Below are positions 8,039 to 16,902 of a stretch of 39,881 nt of DNA, in pieces. The notes under the pieces are model-generated. The model did no database searches. It saw only the letters and a program-made list of their open reading frames with translations, and had not been told where the DNA came from. This DNA is from Rikenellaceae bacterium. GTDB lineage: Bacteria > Bacteroidota > Bacteroidia > Bacteroidales > Rikenellaceae. The position numbers and the translations under genes are program-made. Positions within the stretch are counted from its first letter, which is position 1, and each line of letters starts with the position of its first letter. The DNA lies in assembly GCA_017464745.1 (NCBI GenBank), contig JAFTYJ010000059.1:1-39881 (forward strand), written 5' to 3'.

Positions 8039-8320
8039 CTACTTGTTGAGTTCGCTCAGTTGGGTAAACAGCGCATCAATGCCGGTAAACATATCACGGC
8101 GAACTTGCGCATAGTGTTTGGCAACAAGCGAAGGGTTGTGAGGCTCGGCGGGGTTGTTGACACGAGCAAACAGGTCGTTGCGAAGTTCAACAGCCTTGTT
8201 CATCACGCCTACAATCTCCTCTTTCTTGTCCGAGTGGAAGTAAATCGAAAGGTAGCAATCGGTTACGACCTCCTCAACCAGATAGTCGATATCCTTTTTA
8301 AGTCTTTTTACACTTGCCAT
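8039..8320 (-). CDS. Small conserved hypothetical protein of Bacteroidales type
   Basis: The 93-residue protein is charged and predicted mostly helical (KRLKKDIDYLVEEVVTDCYL, then EEIVGVMNKAVELRNDLFARV). It has no signal peptide, membrane segment or catalytic motif. I recall similar short proteins as uncharacterised genes in Bacteroidales but can name no domain. It has its own strong promoter at 8349-8379 and its own terminator, so it looks like a single-gene transcript despite lying downstream of argB on the same strand. Function unknown. Confidence 0.75.
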   Translation of the reverse strand: MASVKRLKKDIDYLVEEVVTDCYLSIYFHSDKKEEIVGVMNKAVELRNDLFARVNNPAEPHNPSLVAKHYAQVRRDMFTGIDALFTQLSELNK

Positions 8321-8402: not shown

Positions 8403-9164
8403 TTACTCCAAAACCGTACCGCGGCCACTTGCAATATTTTCGGCCGAGCAGATACGCACTCGGGCAACACCGCTATCGATAGCCTTGAACGAGTTTTCGA
8501 GTTTGGGCAGCATACCGTCGGCAACAACGCCCTCGGCACGCAGGCGGGCAAAGTCCTCGCGGGTGATATGTTCGATGAGCGAACTCTCGTCATTCACGTC
8601 GCGCAGAACACCCGACTTCTCGAAGCAATAAATCAGTTCAACCTCGCCCTCGGCAGCCAAACCCGTAGCCACCGCAGCAGCAACAGTATCGGCATTGGTA
8701 TTGAGCAGACCGCACTCGGGGTCAAACGTAATGGGAGCAATAACAAGGTTATAGCCCGCATCGGTCAGTGTGCGGATAAGTTCGGTATTGACCTTATAGG
8801 GGTCGCCCACAAGACCATAGTCCACGGGAGCGGGTTTGCGTCGGTGCGAGGCAATAAGGCAGCCATCAACGCCACACAAACCAATGGTATTGAGTCCTTT
8901 GCGTTGCAGGCGCGAGGTAATATCCTTATTGACACCACCTGCATAGACCATAGTCACAACGCCCAACGTATCGGCGTCGGTTACGCGTCGTCCCTCAATC
9001 ATTGTGGTGGGAATTCCGAGCGATTTGGATATTTGGGTTGCAATTTTGCCACCTCCGTGAATCAAAATCTTGGCACCCTCAACGGTCACAAAGTCGCTCA
9101 AAAACGAGTCCAGCGCGGCGAGGTTATCAACCACATTGCCGCCAATCTTAAAGACCTTAATCAT
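8403..9164 (-). CDS. argB: N-acetylglutamate (or N-succinylglutamate) kinase
   Basis: The 253-residue protein is an amino-acid kinase fold enzyme: FKIGGNVV at the N-terminus for phosphate binding, HGGGKIA near 36-42 for substrate and ATP, and NTNADTVAAAVATGLAAE near 175-192. It phosphorylates the gamma-carboxylate of N-acyl-glutamate, the second step of arginine synthesis. Some Bacteroidota use N-succinyl rather than N-acetyl intermediates, so the substrate could be N-succinylglutamate; sequence alone does not decide. It is the last gene of the arginine cluster, 12 bases after argD. No obvious terminator follows in the 82-base gap. Confidence 0.95.
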   Translation of the reverse strand: MIKVFKIGGNVVDNLAALDSFLSDFVTVEGAKILIHGGGKIATQISKSLGIPTTMIEGRRVTDADTLGVVTMVYAGGVNKDITSRLQRKGLNTIGLCGVDGCLIASHRRKPAPVDYGLVGDPYKVNTELIRTLTDAGYNLVIAPITFDPECGLLNTNADTVAAAVATGLAAEGEVELIYCFEKSGVLRDVNDESSLIEHITREDFARLRAEGVVADGMLPKLENSFKAIDSGVARVRICSAENIASGRGTVLE

Positions 9165-9176
9165 ACGCCACTCCGA

Positions 9177-10310
9177 CTAACCATTAATAGCACTACGGAA
9201 GGCTGCGATAAACTCCTCAACCTGCTGGCGACCGAGACACAACGGCGGCAACAGGCGCACGACATTGGTTCCTGCCGAGCCGACAAACACGTGGTGGTCG
9301 AACAGCAGGCGGCGTTTAATCTCCGAGCAGTCACTCTCGAACTCGATACCAATCATCAATCCCTCGCCACGCAGTTCCTTGATACCATCCAATTTGCGCA
9401 ACTCCGCCATCAGCAGTTCGCCCATCTCGGCAGCATTGGCAACCAGCCCTTCGGCCGACATAACATCGGCTACGGCAATAGCGGCAGCACACGACAGAGG
9501 GTTACCACCGAAAGTTGTACCAAGCATACCTTTCTTAGCCTCGATATGGGGAGCGATAGCCACTGCGCCCACGGGGAAACCATTGGCGATACCTTTGGCC
9601 ATAGTGTACATATCGGCCGAGAAGCCTGCGCGGTCAGTTGCATAGTAGTGGCCCGTGCGGCCGCAACCTGCCTGCACCTCGTCGGCGATATATAGTGCAC
9701 CATACTCTTCGCACAAGCGTTTAGCCTCGCGGCAGAAGTCGTCCTCGGCAACGATAATTCCGCCCACGCCCTGAATCTTCTCGAAGATTACACCTGCGAT
9801 ATTTGCACCCTCGGCCGCAAACAGCGCACGCAGAGCTTCAACATCGTTGATAGGGGTAAACAGAACGTTGTCGGTCTTATTCACAGGAGCCTGAATTTTG
9901 GGGTTATCGGTAGCCGACACCGCAAGCGAGGTACGTCCGTGGAACGCCTTACGCAGGGCAACAATCTTGCTACGACCCGTAACAAACGAGGCCAATTTCA
10001 TAGCGTTCTCGTTGGCCTCGGCACCCGAGTTACACAAGAAGAGTTGGTAGTCCTCGTGGCCCGACAGTGCGCCGAGTTTGTCGGCCAACTCCTGCTGACC
10101 GGGCAGTTTGACAGCGTTCGAATAGAAGCCGAGAGTAGCCACCTGGTCGGCAATACGCATAACATACGAGGGGTGGCTGTGACCGATTGAAATCACGGCG
10201 TGGCCACCATACATATCGAGGTATTGTTGTCCCTTATCGTCCCACACATACATACCGTTGCCCTTGACAATGGCGATGTCGTGTTGGCTGTAAACATCAA
10301 AAAGTTTCAT
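9177..10310 (-). CDS. argD: N-acetylornithine (or N-succinylornithine) aminotransferase
   Basis: The 377-residue protein is a class III PLP aminotransferase. Visible landmarks are SGAEANENAMKLA near 96-107, the pyridine-nitrogen aspartate in YIADEVQAGCGRTG near 207-220, and the Schiff-base lysine K239 in TMAKGIANGFPVGA. It converts the N-acyl-glutamate semialdehyde to N-acyl-ornithine using glutamate. Length matches ArgD. It lies 78 bases after argC, a gap holding a terminator-like structure, and 12 bases before argB. Confidence 0.95.
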   Translation of the reverse strand: MKLFDVYSQHDIAIVKGNGMYVWDDKGQQYLDMYGGHAVISIGHSHPSYVMRIADQVATLGFYSNAVKLPGQQELADKLGALSGHEDYQLFLCNSGAEANENAMKLASFVTGRSKIVALRKAFHGRTSLAVSATDNPKIQAPVNKTDNVLFTPINDVEALRALFAAEGANIAGVIFEKIQGVGGIIVAEDDFCREAKRLCEEYGALYIADEVQAGCGRTGHYYATDRAGFSADMYTMAKGIANGFPVGAVAIAPHIEAKKGMLGTTFGGNPLSCAAAIAVADVMSAEGLVANAAEMGELLMAELRKLDGIKELRGEGLMIGIEFESDCSEIKRRLLFDHHVFVGSAGTNVVRLLPPLCLGRQQVEEFIAAFRSAING

Positions 10311-10388: not shown

Positions 10389-11369
10389 CTAAAAAGCCGA
10401 AGGTTTCAAACGCAGACCTGCCGTCTGCTCCAAGCCCATCATAATATTCATATTCTGAACAGCCTGGCCGCTGGCTCCCTTCACCAAGTTGTCGATAGTA
10501 GAACTTACCAAGAGTTGGTCGCCGTGTTTAACTACATTAACCAGACATTTGTTGGTATTCACCACTTGTTTCATATCAATAGCCTTGTCGCTCACGTGGG
10601 TAAACGCTGCGTCCTTATAGAACTCTTTGTACAACTCCACGGCTTGCTCCTGAGTCATATCGGTACGGGTATAAATCGTAGCGAAGATTCCGCGAGCAAA
10701 AGCACCACGCATAGGAACAAAGTTGATTGCGCCACCAAACGAAGGTTGCAGGCGGGTAATGGTTTCGCCAATCTCGTGCAAGTGTTGGTGCGTAAAAGCC
10801 TTATAGTGGCTTAGGTTGGAGTTACGCCAACTGAAATGGGTGGTAGCCGAAGGTTTTTGGCCGGCACCTGTCGAGCCCGTGGTTGCGGTAATCTGAACAT
10901 CATCGGTCAGCACACCCGCAGCCGCCAAAGGCAACATTCCGAGTTGCAGACAGGTGGCAAAGCATCCGGGGTTGGCAATATTGTTTGCGCTCTTAATCGC
11001 CTCGAAGTTCACCTCGGGCAGACCATACACAAACTCACGAGAGCCAATAGACGAGGTAGCCACCAAACGGAAATCCTGGCTCAGGTCAATAACCTTAACC
11101 GATGCAGGGATGTCGTGTGCCTCCATATATTTGCGTGCGTCGCCGTGGCCTACACACAAGAACACAACATCCACACCGTCCCAATCCGGCTCGGCAACAA
11201 ATCTCATCGAGGTATCGCCAAACAGGTCGGCGTGCACGTCACTCAAAAGGTTGCCTCCGTTGCTGGTACTTTGAACAAAACGCAGTTGCGCCTCGGGGTG
11301 GTTCAACAACAATCTGATTGCCTCACCGCCGGTGTATCCGGCACCTCCTATAATCGCTGCACCAATCAT
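10389..11369 (-). CDS. argC: N-acetyl-gamma-glutamyl-phosphate reductase (or succinyl form)
   Basis: The 326-residue protein starts with a Rossmann NADP site (IIGGAGYTGGEAIRLL) and has the active-site cysteine C136 in IANPGCFAT. It reduces N-acyl-glutamyl-phosphate to the semialdehyde, the third step of arginine synthesis. Its ATG overlaps the argG stop by one base (TAATG), suggesting translational coupling. Its own stop is followed by the possible attenuator. Confidence 0.95.
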   Translation of the reverse strand: MIGAAIIGGAGYTGGEAIRLLLNHPEAQLRFVQSTSNGGNLLSDVHADLFGDTSMRFVAEPDWDGVDVVFLCVGHGDARKYMEAHDIPASVKVIDLSQDFRLVATSSIGSREFVYGLPEVNFEAIKSANNIANPGCFATCLQLGMLPLAAAGVLTDDVQITATTGSTGAGQKPSATTHFSWRNSNLSHYKAFTHQHLHEIGETITRLQPSFGGAINFVPMRGAFARGIFATIYTRTDMTQEQAVELYKEFYKDAAFTHVSDKAIDMKQVVNTNKCLVNVVKHGDQLLVSSTIDNLVKGASGQAVQNMNIMMGLEQTAGLRLKPSAF

Positions 11370-12559
11370 TACTGCTCGTTGATTTTGTGCCAGATAACGT
11401 TTTGCAGACCGAAAATCTTGCCGAAGCCCTCAACGTCGGTGCTGCTCCAATCGCTCATAACCTCGCCATAAGCACCAAACTTGTTGCTCATCAGGTCGTG
11501 TGCGCTCTCAACACCCACGATAACATAGCGGTAGGGATAGAGGTCAACAATCACATCACCCGTAACCATACGTTGCGAAGTTTCGAGCATAGCCTCCATA
11601 TCGCGCATCACGGGGTCGTAGTATTGGCCCTCGTGCAACCAGTTGCCATAGAATTGCGAGATTTGGTCTTTCCAGAAGAGTTGCCACTTGGTCAGAGTGT
11701 GTTTTTCCAACATATGGTGGGCTTTGATAATCAGAATAGGAGCGGCAGCCTCAAAACCTACACGGCCCTTGATACCGATGATGGTATCGCCAACGTGCAT
11801 ACCACGGCCGATAGCATAGGGAGCGGCGATGGCTTGCAGGTCTTGGATGGCTTTGATTTTGTCGTCATATTTCACGCCGTCGATAGCCGAAATCTCACCT
11901 TTCTCGAACGAGAGGGTTACACGGCGAGGCTCGGTTGCGGTCATTTGCGAAGGATATGCCTTCTCGGGCAGGGTTTCGGACGAGGTAAGGGTCTCTTTAC
12001 CACCCACCGAGGTACCCCAAACGCCTTGGTTAATCGAGTACTCGGCCTTCTTGAAGTCGAAGTCTACACCGTGCGAACGCAGGTATGCAATCTCCTCCTC
12101 GCGGGTGAGTCGTTTCTCACGAATCAGGGCGATAACCTTGATGTCGGGAGCAACGATATTGAAAATCATATCGAAACGTACTTGGTCGTTACCTGCACCG
12201 GTCGAGCCGTGGCACAGATAGTCGGCACCGATTTGTTTGGCATACTCGGCAACAGCACTTGCTTGCGAGATACGCTCCGAACTAACCGAGATGGGGTAAG
12301 CGCCGTTTTTGAGCACGTTACCATAGACCATATAACGAATCGAGTCGTTATAATATTTGTGAGCGACATCCAGCACCGTATAGTCTTTCACACCAAGGGC
12401 ACGGGCGCGGCGCTCGATTTCGGCCAACTCGGCCTCCGAGAAACCACCGGTGCTTGCCAATGCTGCATAAACTTCGAGGCCCATCTCTTTGGCCAGATAC
12501 ACGGCGCTATACGAGGTATCCAAACCTCCACTGAACGCCAAAACTACTTTTTTGCTCAT
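11369..12559 (-). CDS. argG: Argininosuccinate synthase
   Basis: The 396-residue protein begins with the ATP pyrophosphatase P-loop (LAFSGGLDTSYSA, residues 7-19), and HGSTGAGNDQVRFD marks the citrulline/aspartate site near 117-130. It joins citrulline and aspartate with ATP to form argininosuccinate. It is 22 bases downstream of the GNAT gene and overlaps argC by one base. Neither argininosuccinate lyase nor an ornithine transcarbamylase is in the window. Confidence 0.96.
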   Translation of the reverse strand: MSKKVVLAFSGGLDTSYSAVYLAKEMGLEVYAALASTGGFSEAELAEIERRARALGVKDYTVLDVAHKYYNDSIRYMVYGNVLKNGAYPISVSSERISQASAVAEYAKQIGADYLCHGSTGAGNDQVRFDMIFNIVAPDIKVIALIREKRLTREEEIAYLRSHGVDFDFKKAEYSINQGVWGTSVGGKETLTSSETLPEKAYPSQMTATEPRRVTLSFEKGEISAIDGVKYDDKIKAIQDLQAIAAPYAIGRGMHVGDTIIGIKGRVGFEAAAPILIIKAHHMLEKHTLTKWQLFWKDQISQFYGNWLHEGQYYDPVMRDMEAMLETSQRMVTGDVIVDLYPYRYVIVGVESAHDLMSNKFGAYGEVMSDWSSTDVEGFGKIFGLQNVIWHKINEQ

Positions 12560-12581
12560 AATATTTGTACTTTTTGATTAA

Positions 12582-13214
12582 TTACAGTGAGTGGATGTCG
12601 ATAGGCTCGACATTGGCCAAATCCTCCATCATATCGAACAGGAATTTGGGTTTCAAGGTTGCGGTGATGTAGTCCACCTCGGGGTCAAACAGCATTGCGG
12701 TACACAAGCAGTTGTGACGCTCCTTGCTTTCGAGAATGGGATAGTTCACACAACTCTTGCAGCCTGCCCAAAACTCATCCTCGTCGGTAAGTTGCGAGAA
12801 GGTTACGGGGTGGTAGCCGAGTTCGGTATTAATCTTCATAACGGCCAGGCCTGTGGTCAGACCGAAGAGTTTGGCGCCCTTGAATTTTTTGAGCGACAGG
12901 AAGAATGTTTTGGTCTTGATAGCCCTTGCCAATCCGAGTTTGCGGAATTTGGGATTGATAATAAGACCCGAGTTGGCGACATATTTGCCGTGGCCCCAGC
13001 ACTCAATGTAACTGAAACCGGCCCAAGTGCCGTCTTTATGAATTGCGATAACGGCTTTACCGTCACGCATTTTGCCTGCAACGTACTCGGGCGAGCGTTT
13101 GGAAATACCCGTACCGCGAGCCTTGGCCGACTCGGCCATTTCGTCACAAATCTCTTTGGCATAGGGAGTGTGCTTCTCCGATGCCACCACAACTACAAAG
13201 TCGTCTATTGTCAT
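12582..13214 (-). CDS. GNAT acyltransferase heading the arginine cluster; candidate N-acylglutamate synthase
   Basis: I start this gene at the ATG at 13214 (210 residues). An in-frame TTG at 13238 lies only 10 bases from the -7 promoter element and would make the message nearly leaderless. The GNAT fold shows a CoA-pyrophosphate loop (NPKFRKLGLARA, about 87-98). After it comes a C-x2-C, 13-residue gap, C-x-C pattern (C152, C155, C169, C171) that could bind metal. It is the first gene before argG, argC, argD and argB, and no standard argA or argJ is present. This makes it the natural candidate for the first step, N-acylation of glutamate. I recall genetic evidence for a homologue in Bacteroides but cannot check it here. 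Confidence 0.85.
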   Translation of the reverse strand: MTIDDFVVVVASEKHTPYAKEICDEMAESAKARGTGISKRSPEYVAGKMRDGKAVIAIHKDGTWAGFSYIECWGHGKYVANSGLIINPKFRKLGLARAIKTKTFFLSLKKFKGAKLFGLTTGLAVMKINTELGYHPVTFSQLTDEDEFWAGCKSCVNYPILESKERHNCLCTAMLFDPEVDYITATLKPKFLFDMMEDLANVEPIDIHSL

Positions 13215-13248
13215 TTCAGTTTTTGGGTTAAGATGCAACTTTTGGATG

Positions 13249-13256
13249 CAAAGGTA
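13249..13256 (-). promoter_or_regulatory. -7 element of the arginine cluster
   Basis: On the minus strand TACCTTTG (13256-13249) is a perfect TAnnTTTG. No TTTG stands at the usual spacing upstream. Transcription would start near 13243, about 29 bases before the chosen ATG of the GNAT gene. Confidence 0.55.
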
Positions 13257-13300
13257 TAAAAAACATCTTGGAATTATTCCCTCCTTTCAAACTTTTTTAA

Positions 13301-13308
13301 TACCTTTG
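13301..13308 (+). promoter_or_regulatory. -7 element of ileS
   Basis: TACCTTTG (13301-13308) is a perfect TAnnTTTG on the plus strand, 36 bases before the ileS ATG. A clear -33 TTTG is missing. It faces away from the arginine-cluster -7 element; the two are 44 bases apart. Confidence 0.55.
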
Positions 13309-13344
13309 CGTTTTTAGTTGACGACTATACAAATTAGATATAAA

Positions 13345-16300
13345 ATGAGTAACGCCAAATTCAAGGAGTACAAAGGACTCAATCTGACCCAATTGTCCGA
13401 AGAGGTGCTGAACCAATGGGATCGTGACGACACGTTCCGCAAGAGTGTTTTGCAACGCGAAGGTTCGCCCGCATTCATCTTCTATGAAGGACCTCCCTCG
13501 GCTAACGGTATGCCCGGTATTCACCATATGATGGCCCGCACCATCAAAGACATCATCTGCCGATACAAAACAGGTAAAGGTTTCCAAGTAAACCGCAAAG
13601 CAGGATGGGATACTCACGGACTGCCCGTTGAGTTGGGTGTCGAGAAAAAACTCGGCATCACCAAAGACGAAATCGGAACCAAAATATCTATCGAGGAGTA
13701 CAACCGAACCTGCCGAGAGGCTGTTATGGAGTACACCGATGTGTGGGGCGATTTGACCCGCAAAATGGGATATTGGGTGAACACCGACGACGCATACATC
13801 ACCTACGACAACAAATACATCGAAACTCTGTGGTGGATGCTCAAACAACTCTACGAGAAGGGACTGCTCTACAAGGGCTACACCATCCAGCCCTACTCGC
13901 CCGGCGCAGGTACGGGACTCTCGACTCACGAGTTGAACCAACCGGGTTGCTACCGCGATGTTAAGGACACCACCGCTACGGCTCTGTTCCGCATCGTAAA
14001 CCCGCGTGAGGAGATGGCGGCTTGGGGTACACCCTGCTTTGCTGCGTGGACTACCACTCCGTGGACCCTGCCCTCGAACACTGCACTGTGTGTTGGCCCC
14101 AAAATCGAGTATGTGTGCGTACAAACCTACAACCCCTACAACGGCGAGAAAATCAGCGTCGTGATGGCCGAGGCTCGTGTGAATGCCTATTTCAAAGCCG
14201 AAGGTGCCGAGGCTTCGATGGAGGAGTACAAAGCCGGTGACAAGGTGGTTCCCTATCGTGTGGTGGCTCACTACACAGGTGCCGACCTGGTAGATATGCG
14301 CTATGAGCAACTTATGCCGTGGGTAAAACCCGTCGAGATGGCAGGTGTGAACGCCGCCGAGTGGGTTAATACCTATGCTAAGGCCAATCCCGACAAGTGT
14401 TTCAAAGTTCAGAAGGATAATTTTGTCGAACTTTCGGAGTGCGCTTTCCGCGTAATCCCCGGCGACTATGTTACCACCGACGACGGTACGGGTATCGTAC
14501 ACATTGCACCTACGTTTGGTGCCGACGACGCCAAGGTTGCCAAAGCAGCAGGTGTTCCGTCGCTGTTTATGATTAACCGCCGTGGCGAGACCCGCCCGAT
14601 GGTCGATATGACAGGTAAATACTATCTGTTGGAGGAGTGCGACGACACATTCGTAAATATGTGCGTAAACCGAGAGGGTTATGGCGTGCACGAGGGCGCT
14701 TATGTCAAGAACGCCTACGACCCGCAGTTCAACCCCGGTGGTAAGTATGAAGAGAAAGCCGCTGCCAAAGCCGAGGACCTGAACATCTATCTGTGTATGG
14801 AGATGAAACAGGCCGGAACTGCACTCAAAATCGAGAAACATACCCACAACTATCCCCACTGCTGGCGTACCGACAAACCCGTGCTGTACTATCCGCTGGA
14901 TTCGTGGTTCATTCGCACCACCGCTTGTCGTGAGCGTATGATGGAACTCAACGAGGGTATCTATTGGAAACCCGAATCAACCGGTTCGGGACGTTTCGGC
15001 AAGTGGCTCGAAAACCTCCAAGATTGGAACTTGTCGCGTTCGCGTTTCTGGGGTACTCCCCTGCCCATTTGGGCTACCGACGACTACTCGGAGTTGAAGT
15101 GTATCGGCTCGGTAGAGGAGTTGAAAGCCGAAATCGAAAAGGCTATTGCAGCAGGTGTAATGACCGAAAATCCCTATGCCGACTTCTGCGTGGGCGATTT
15201 CAGCAAAGAGAACTACAACAAAATTGACCTGCACCGTCCCTATGTAGACAACATTGTGTTGGTATCGAGCAAGGGCGAGCCTATGCGTCGTGAGAGCGAC
15301 CTGATTGACGTGTGGTTCGACAGTGGCGCAATGCCCTATGCACAGGTTCACTTCCCGTTCGAAATGAGCAAGGAGGAGTTCCTGAAAGTATATCCCGCAG
15401 ATTTCATCGCCGAGGGTGTGGACCAAACCCGTGGATGGTTCTTTACGCTGCACGCGCTGGGCACAATGCTGTTTGACTCGGTGGCATTTAAGAACATCAT
15501 CTCGAATGGTTTGGTGCTCGACAAGAACGGCAACAAGATGAGTAAACGTTTGGGCAACGCCATCGACCCGTTTGAGGTTATGGACAAGTATGGTGTGGAT
15601 GCCGTGCGTTGGTACATCATCTCGAACTCGCAACCGTGGGACAACCTGAAATTCGACGTAGATGGTGTTGACGAGGTACGACGCAAGTTCTTCGGCACAC
15701 TCTACAACACTTATAGTTTCTTTGCGCTGTATGCCAACGTAGATGGTTTCAGTGGCACCGAGGAGGAGGTTCCTGTCGAGGAGCGCCCCGAAATTGACCG
15801 CTGGATTATCTCGCTGCTCAACACCCTGGTGGCCAACGTCACCAAGTGTCTGGACGACTACGACCCCACCCCTGCGGCTCGTATGATTCAAGAGTTTGTG
15901 GGCGAGAACCTGTCGAACTGGTACGTACGTCTGAACCGCAAGCGTTTCTGGGGAGGCGAGATGAACCGCGACAAGTTGGCCGCCTACCAAACACTCTACA
16001 CCTGTCTGGAAACCGTGGCTCAACTGAGTGCGCCGTTTGCACCCTTCATCTCGGAGCAAATCTTCTGTGACCTGAACGCCGTGAGCGGTCGCCACACCGA
16101 AGAGTCGGTTCACCTGGCACTCTTCCCCGAGAGCAACGCTGCACTCATCAACAGCGACCTCGAAGAGATGATGGCTGTGGCACAACAAGTGTCGTCGATG
16201 GTATTGGCCCTGCGTCGCAAAGTGAACATCAAAGTTCGTCAGCCGCTGACCAAAATCATTATCCCGCTGTTGGACGAGCGTCTGGGCGCACACATCGAGG

Positions 16301-16902
16301 CTGTCAAAGGACTCATTATGGGTGAGGTCAACATCAAAGAGATTGAACTCATCAGCGACACCACAGGACTTATCACCAAGCGCATCAAACCCAACTTCAA
16401 AACTCTGGGCCCGCGCTATGGCAAGTATATGAAACAGATTGCCGCTCTGGTGGCCGAGATGGGTCAGGAGCAGATTGCCGAAATTGAGGCTTCGCAAACC
16501 TACGTATTGAACGTTGCCGGAGAGGAATTGACCTTGGAGCGTGGCGACTTCGACATCACTTCGGACGATATGCCCGGATGGTTGGTTGCCTCGGAGGGTA
16601 AACTGACCGTGGCTTTGGACATCACCGTGACCGACGAGTTGCGCAAGGAGGGTACGGCACGCGAACTCATCAACCGTATTCAAAACATCCGTAAGGATAG
16701 CGGTTTGGAGGTTACCGACCGTATTCGTCTGTCGATTCAACGCACCGACGAGGTTGCCGAGAGTGTGGAGGCATTCGGAAATCTGATTGCTTCGCAAACG
16801 CTGGCTGTGGCAATTTCGGTGGACGAGAAGGCCGAAGGAACCTTTGTGGCCGACACCGACATCAACGAAACTCCGCTTCAAATCGGTATCACCAAAGAGT
16901 AG
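13345..16902 (+). CDS. ileS: Isoleucyl-tRNA synthetase
   Basis: I start at the ATG at 13345 (1185 residues); the in-frame TTG at 13318 only adds nine residues close to the promoter. This class I synthetase has the HIGH-equivalent GIHH (58-61 in SANGMPGIHHMMAR), an inserted editing domain (about 200-420), KMSKR (731-735), and an anticodon-binding domain with a long C-terminal extension (DUF5915-like, from about 960). Length and the GIHH form match the long, eukaryote-like IleRS of Bacteroidota. Type-2 IleRS are often mupirocin-insensitive, but I cannot assign that here. A terminator follows the TAG stop. Confidence 0.97.
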   Translation: MSNAKFKEYKGLNLTQLSEEVLNQWDRDDTFRKSVLQREGSPAFIFYEGPPSANGMPGIHHMMARTIKDIICRYKTGKGFQVNRKAGWDTHGLPVELGVEKKLGITKDEIGTKISIEEYNRTCREAVMEYTDVWGDLTRKMGYWVNTDDAYITYDNKYIETLWWMLKQLYEKGLLYKGYTIQPYSPGAGTGLSTHELNQPGCYRDVKDTTATALFRIVNPREEMAAWGTPCFAAWTTTPWTLPSNTALCVGPKIEYVCVQTYNPYNGEKISVVMAEARVNAYFKAEGAEASMEEYKAGDKVVPYRVVAHYTGADLVDMRYEQLMPWVKPVEMAGVNAAEWVNTYAKANPDKCFKVQKDNFVELSECAFRVIPGDYVTTDDGTGIVHIAPTFGADDAKVAKAAGVPSLFMINRRGETRPMVDMTGKYYLLEECDDTFVNMCVNREGYGVHEGAYVKNAYDPQFNPGGKYEEKAAAKAEDLNIYLCMEMKQAGTALKIEKHTHNYPHCWRTDKPVLYYPLDSWFIRTTACRERMMELNEGIYWKPESTGSGRFGKWLENLQDWNLSRSRFWGTPLPIWATDDYSELKCIGSVEELKAEIEKAIAAGVMTENPYADFCVGDFSKENYNKIDLHRPYVDNIVLVSSKGEPMRRESDLIDVWFDSGAMPYAQVHFPFEMSKEEFLKVYPADFIAEGVDQTRGWFFTLHALGTMLFDSVAFKNIISNGLVLDKNGNKMSKRLGNAIDPFEVMDKYGVDAVRWYIISNSQPWDNLKFDVDGVDEVRRKFFGTLYNTYSFFALYANVDGFSGTEEEVPVEERPEIDRWIISLLNTLVANVTKCLDDYDPTPAARMIQEFVGENLSNWYVRLNRKRFWGGEMNRDKLAAYQTLYTCLETVAQLSAPFAPFISEQIFCDLNAVSGRHTEESVHLALFPESNAALINSDLEEMMAVAQQVSSMVLALRRKVNIKVRQPLTKIIIPLLDERLGAHIEAVKGLIMGEVNIKEIELISDTTGLITKRIKPNFKTLGPRYGKYMKQIAALVAEMGQEQIAEIEASQTYVLNVAGEELTLERGDFDITSDDMPGWLVASEGKLTVALDITVTDELRKEGTARELINRIQNIRKDSGLEVTDRIRLSIQRTDEVAESVEAFGNLIASQTLAVAISVDEKAEGTFVADTDINETPLQIGITKE

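Follow-up and report, generated by a model that had tools for sequence, protein, structure and literature searches.

A four-cysteine GNAT protein heading a Rikenellaceae arginine operon as a probable N-succinylglutamate synthase

Which protein acylates glutamate at the start of arginine synthesis in a Rikenellaceae bacterium whose arginine operon begins with a small GNAT-fold protein, and what do the four clustered cysteines of that protein do? The window analysed here, a stretch of 39,881 nucleotides, is contig 23 of an assembly of 1.63 Mb in 99 contigs that is 83.4% complete. The gene in question, argA2, lies at 12582..13214 on the minus strand and encodes a predicted GNAT-fold N-acylglutamate synthase of 210 amino acids, with an ATG start at 13214 and a TAA stop at 12582-12584; an in-frame TTG at 13238 is an alternative start that would add eight residues. 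The first-pass annotation had given this interval no strand: the gene is real and sits on the minus strand, and the plus-strand reading of 12582-13214 is not the ArgA2 protein.

The earlier proposal that a GNAT protein heads an arginine cluster held up, with argA2 preceding argG, argC, argD and argB in that order on the minus strand and successive gaps of 22, -1, 78 and 12 bases. The argininosuccinate synthase gene argG (11369..12559, minus) matched PF00764 and PF20979 above cut-off; the NCBIfam argG models ranked best for it, yet fell under their own cut-offs. N-acyl-gamma-glutamyl-phosphate reductase (argC; 10389..11369, minus) and N-acylglutamate kinase (argB; 8403..9164, minus) passed TIGR01850 and TIGR00761, respectively. 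The argD-like N-acylornithine aminotransferase gene between them (9177..10310, minus) passed PF00202, and its best NCBIfam models, under cut-off, were for acetylornithine transaminase. A 93-amino-acid open frame on the same strand (8039-8320), 82 bases past argB, had no Pfam match.

Upstream of argA2, a divergent open frame at 13318-16902 is presumably ileS by its sequence, a name supported by a match in one relative's locus (L072). The argA2-ileS intergenic region (13215..13338) contains TACCTTTG on the argA2 strand, which we take to resemble the Bacteroidota -7 element TAnnTTTG. The same motif occurs on both strands of 13215-13338, an arrangement that would fit two divergent Bacteroidota-type promoters. 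Searches of the window with Rfam and for tRNAs returned no match.

Family databases placed ArgA2 poorly. Pfam gave no specific family (best PF13508, E 0.075, under cut-off), NCBIfam gave none either and the protein had no TIGR01890 match, and the sole PHROGs hit was weak and partial, to a family whose function is unknown (E 8e-4). A single-sequence search of solved structures found remote GNATs only, the best being PA4794 (E 6e-6). Membership of the GNAT superfamily is weak by Pfam and clear by predicted structure: the model (pLDDT 91, pTM 0.89) has the fold, and the acyl-CoA-binding loop R91-K-L-G-L-A96 (12927..12944, minus) is in place, with R91 invariant and G94 present in 177 of 179 aligned sequences. 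We take this RKLGLA loop to be motif A of GNAT, R/Q-x-x-G-x-A/G. The classical ArgA arrangement, an AAK domain fused to GNAT with a TIGR01890 score above cut-off, was not found in this 210-residue protein.

The closest structural neighbour of the model was Neisseria N-acetylglutamate synthase (2r8v; Z 15.6, rmsd 3.0, 153 aligned residues), which also ranked first in a Foldseek search, and the third was Mycobacterium tuberculosis ArgA with glutamate and acetyl-CoA (5yge; Z 14.7, rmsd 2.6, 144 aligned). Rank two, at Z 14.7, went to PA2271, a GNAT outside the glutamate enzymes, and Z was still 13.0 at rank 50; the glutamate enzymes lead by so little that the fold by itself does not establish a function. 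Neisseria N-acetylglutamate synthase and M. tuberculosis ArgA (Rv2747, 5yge/5yo2) share with ArgA2 one of the closest folds and the acylation of glutamate, which is predicted for ArgA2, whereas their sequences are only 14-15% identical to it. The Neisseria enzyme carries an amino-acid-kinase domain, which ArgA2 lacks.

Proteins of this kind have been described before. BT3761 (Q8A1A5) of Bacteroides thetaiotaomicron was assigned a role in arginine synthesis from mutant fitness in GapMind (PMC7311316); it is reported to be required for growth without arginine, with rescue by arginine (PMC7311316, PMC9026213), and is described there as more than 50% identical to Cabys_1732 and as a probable N-succinylglutamate synthase (PMC7311316). 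The family has been named ArgA2, with members in Bacteroides, Prevotella, Alistipes and others and a function proposed along the same lines (PMC9026213). Set beside BT3761 by description, the protein studied here is likewise a GNAT in a Bacteroidota arginine operon, where it apparently stands in for ArgA. Cabys_1732 of Caldithrix abyssi, also compared by description, resembles it in opening an arg locus (argAGCBEH), and differs in being reported, from unpublished results, as a newly characterised N-acetylglutamate synthase isoform rather than the likely succinyl enzyme here (PMC5317091). The label BT3761 also turns up in PMC9765024, in the legend of a figure that deals with a glycoside hydrolase family; that mention was set aside here. 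By sequence and neighbourhood, ArgA2 of this window is a member of the described family and not of a new one. The N-acylglutamate synthase role suggested for it in the first-pass annotation is well supported but is not new, having been in print already, together with BT3761 mutant fitness as backing (PMC7311316, PMC9026213). The support for this first-step role is genetic; the accessible parts of PMC7311316, PMC9026213 and PMC5317091 yielded no biochemical proof.

The remainder of the genome was searched for other routes to an acylated glutamate and for the later steps. ArgJ had no match in the 83.4% complete assembly, and classical ArgA (TIGR01890) had two weak matches, neither over the cut-off, which were argB and a short GNAT on contig 55. 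The TIGR01890 cut-off is narrow, being passed in 1 of 14 control genomes, and the absence of ArgJ and classical ArgA is provisional. Four places with a GNAT domain exist besides argA2.

The transcarbamylase of this genome, encoded on another contig, scored 580 bits against the Bacteroides fragilis N-succinylornithine enzyme (1js1) versus 189 against an N-acetylornithine enzyme. Three sites are reported to discriminate the two types, occupied by Glu92, Asn185 and Lys302 in the acetyl enzyme and by A/S/P/V/Q, P and V/I/E in the succinyl enzyme (PMC4581275); the enzyme here has S, P and I, which is the succinyl type. Across 77 transcarbamylases in the fetched loci, this one included, Glu occurred at the first site in none and a residue listed for the succinyl type in 73, in a count that favours the succinyl type since it was queried with this genome's own succinylornithine enzyme. 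The exceptions were four sequences whose first-site residue was T, G or I, one sequence that lacks the second site and three that lack the third. GapMind similarly records a succinyl-type key-site residue in 61 of 69 Bacteroidetes transcarbamylases (PMC7311316). For the deacylation step there is an M20 peptidase-family protein of 354 amino acids, whose gene directly adjoins argH on contig 40; M20 genes similar to it (E 1e-20 or better) occur in 44 other fetched loci. Judged by sequence, each step of a succinyl route has a candidate gene in this gut-type bacterium, and ArgA2, a GNAT in a Bacteroidota arginine operon that co-occurs with a succinylornithine transcarbamylase, is the candidate for the first.

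These results bear on the acyl donor. That ArgA2 instead uses acetyl-CoA and makes N-acetylglutamate is the alternative that survives best, although we consider it unlikely: Cabys_1732 is described as an N-acetylglutamate synthase (PMC5317091) and acetyl-CoA is the donor for those of the nearest solved folds that are glutamate enzymes, but the transcarbamylase of this genome has succinyl-type residues at each of the three discriminating sites, and ArgB of B. fragilis has been reported as an N-succinylglutamate kinase (PMC7311316).

A part of the family that seems to have drawn little notice is a segment with four invariant cysteines. ArgA2 has cysteines at positions 23, 72, 152, 155, 169 and 171, and the pattern noted at first pass, C-x2-C, a 13-residue gap and C-x-C downstream of the CoA-binding loop, is exact at C152, C155, C169 and C171 (codons 12759..12761, 12750..12752, 12708..12710 and 12702..12704, all minus). 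C23 and C72 vary among relatives. By contrast, each of the four clustered positions was cysteine in 61 of 61 rows of a smaller alignment and in 179 of 179 distinct sequences, which reach down to 42% identity. The set of 179 was obtained by dropping identical rows from 193 sequences, all of which carry the four cysteines. These counts cover part of the homologues found, namely 18 of 44 matching relatives' genomes, 45 of 70 matching genomes of the class (this genome included), the best 80 of at least 588 confirmed candidates and, from a phylum search that matched 125 genomes, the top 30 loci together with 20 further stretches chosen because they had weak scores, long frames or second copies or belonged to other families. 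The four cysteines are kept in three ArgA2-ArgG fusions, six second copies, a record labelled as phage and a 0.5-Mb genome (L046) whose terminal branch is the longest in the tree, which was built from 67 rows. Conservation of the four is beyond chance.

The cysteines belong to a segment (residues 146-172; 12699..12779, minus) that, by model and alignment, lies between strands 135-137 and 172-176. Invariant columns number 20 across the 179 sequences, and eight of them (F148, W149, C152, C155, L161, C169, C171 and T172) fall within these 27 of 210 positions, for which the hypergeometric P is about 0.001 with a range that was picked after looking. In the model, C152 is placed near the end of helix 146-154 and C155 just past it, with C169 and C171 just before strand 172-176, so that the segment connects the last two strands of the predicted core. 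The superposition on 2r8v pairs a model range of 178 residues with a chain range of 153, about 25 extra, which is consistent with the cysteine segment being the addition relative to the Neisseria enzyme but does not establish it. Searched alone, the segment had no Pfam match and gave chance-like matches to solved structures (best E 0.054), with no convincing metal site among them.

C152, C155, C169 and C171 probably hold a metal ion together, with zinc the most likely metal of the putative site. A partial parallel is the arginyl-tRNA-protein transferase ATE1, another GNAT-domain enzyme with four cysteines (CX2C...CC), whose zinc site is reported to be needed for stability; unlike here, that site lies in a separate substrate-binding domain and has another spacing, and ATE1 has another function (PMC10115844). 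Control of the enzyme through its cysteines, as first proposed, fared less well. Were they an iron-sulfur cluster or a thiol switch that ties arginine synthesis to the redox state or to the supply of metal, their strict conservation as a set would also be accounted for. A regulatory device would, however, be expected to be lost somewhere, and not one loss or replacement occurred in 179 sequences, the 0.5-Mb genome with the longest branch included; we regard this reading as decidedly improbable. Unbroken retention argues for a part in structure or catalysis and favours a metal centre that is obligatory, whether structural or at the active site, over an optional redox switch. We found no description of the ArgA2 four-cysteine segment in the open-licence literature, and the accessible parts of PMC7311316 and PMC9026213 do not mention the four cysteines for ArgA2/BT3761.

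Gene neighbourhoods tie the family to arginine synthesis. ArgA2 sequence searches matched 44 of 61 relatives and, across the class, 70 of 198 genomes, and a profile matched 125 of 296 genomes of the phylum. In the phylum search, full matches scored at least 259 bits and the next ones at most 27, which marks the family as sharply bounded; three weak partial matches (E 1e-5 to 7e-4) were left out of the counts. The six best named loci among the matches listed were from Alistipes and Rikenellaceae assemblies, at 69-80% identity, which makes a Rikenellaceae-like member of Bacteroidales the probable source of the window. A Parabacteroides GNAT annotated at the head of argininosuccinate synthase and argC was 57% identical to ArgA2. 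Among 193 loci, in which some genomes are present twice, 171 had argG as the next gene, on the same strand and at most 1 kb away; it was fused to argA2 in three, and another three had too little flank. The other 16 lacked argG within 1 kb and, together with the want of a specific Pfam or NCBIfam assignment, are what could be said for a GNAT acting on some other substrate (protein, polyamine or antibiotic) and placed in the operon by chance, which is very improbable given the 171 adjacent and three fused loci, the BT3761 mutant data (PMC7311316) and the lack of an ArgJ match or an ArgA match over the cut-off in this 83.4% complete genome.

Taking these lines together, we consider it probable that ArgA2 is an N-succinylglutamate synthase with a built-in four-cysteine site. 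We infer the glutamate-acylating reaction and its acyl donor from the predicted fold, the operon position, the family as defined by sequence and neighbourhood, the pathway genes and the transcarbamylase signature; that the four cysteines bind one metal ion, most likely zinc, goes a step further and draws on their invariance. As a short single-domain GNAT, ArgA2 would bind acyl-CoA at the R91-A96 loop and acylate glutamate on its amino group, with succinyl-CoA as the most likely donor and succinyl as the group transferred. In GNATs, the amine substrate side is formed partly by the region between the last two strands. The metal, most likely zinc, would pin the added cysteine segment near the glutamate site and keep it in shape for glutamate binding, and the invariant F148, W149 and T172 may help to shape that site. 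The N-succinylglutamate would then pass through ArgB, ArgC, ArgD, succinylornithine transcarbamylase, the M20 desuccinylase, ArgG and ArgH. Against this succinyl-transferring metalloenzyme stand the acetyl activity reported for one characterised family member, Cabys_1732 (PMC5317091), the loci without a nearby argG, the four further GNAT places in the genome, the small structural lead of the glutamate enzymes and the failure of the cysteine segment to match a solved metal site convincingly.

A wider possibility, which we advance tentatively, is that the first arginine-specific step in much of a phylum is carried out by a metalloenzyme whose GNAT fold is built around a Cys4 metal centre that is obligatory; no description of such a variant of the fold was found in the open-licence literature. 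If true, arginine prototrophy of gut Bacteroidota would depend on the supply of zinc or iron, and metal held by the cysteines would matter for metal starvation in the gut as well as for the way in which ArgA2 works.

The three ArgA2-ArgG fusions (L180, L181 and L182) are single open frames of 588-630 amino acids with the GNAT part first and ArgG second. All three derive from a single family and group together in the tree with support of 99/87; in each, one chain combines two steps of arginine synthesis, the first and a late one. Six genomes have a second full ArgA2 copy (L183-L188) without argG nearby; these copies fall into two well-supported tree groups, of four and two rows, and one of them (L188) adjoins an M20 gene resembling the one beside argH in the genome studied here.

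Two records carry relatives in unexpected settings. LR756504.1, a 636-kb sequence labelled as uncultured phage, encodes at 12001-12603 an intact ArgA2 relative (65% identity) that keeps the full set of four cysteines and lies close to phage-like genes; searches of the record gave a match for terminase and none for ArgG. A phage with the first arginine enzyme and no ArgG would be unusual, if LR756504.1 is truly phage. In Parabacteroides distasonis, NZ_OY725752.1 (118 kb, labelled as a plasmid) has consecutive genes for an arginine repressor, a GNAT, argininosuccinate synthase, argC and an aminotransferase, and is perhaps a mislabelled piece of chromosome.
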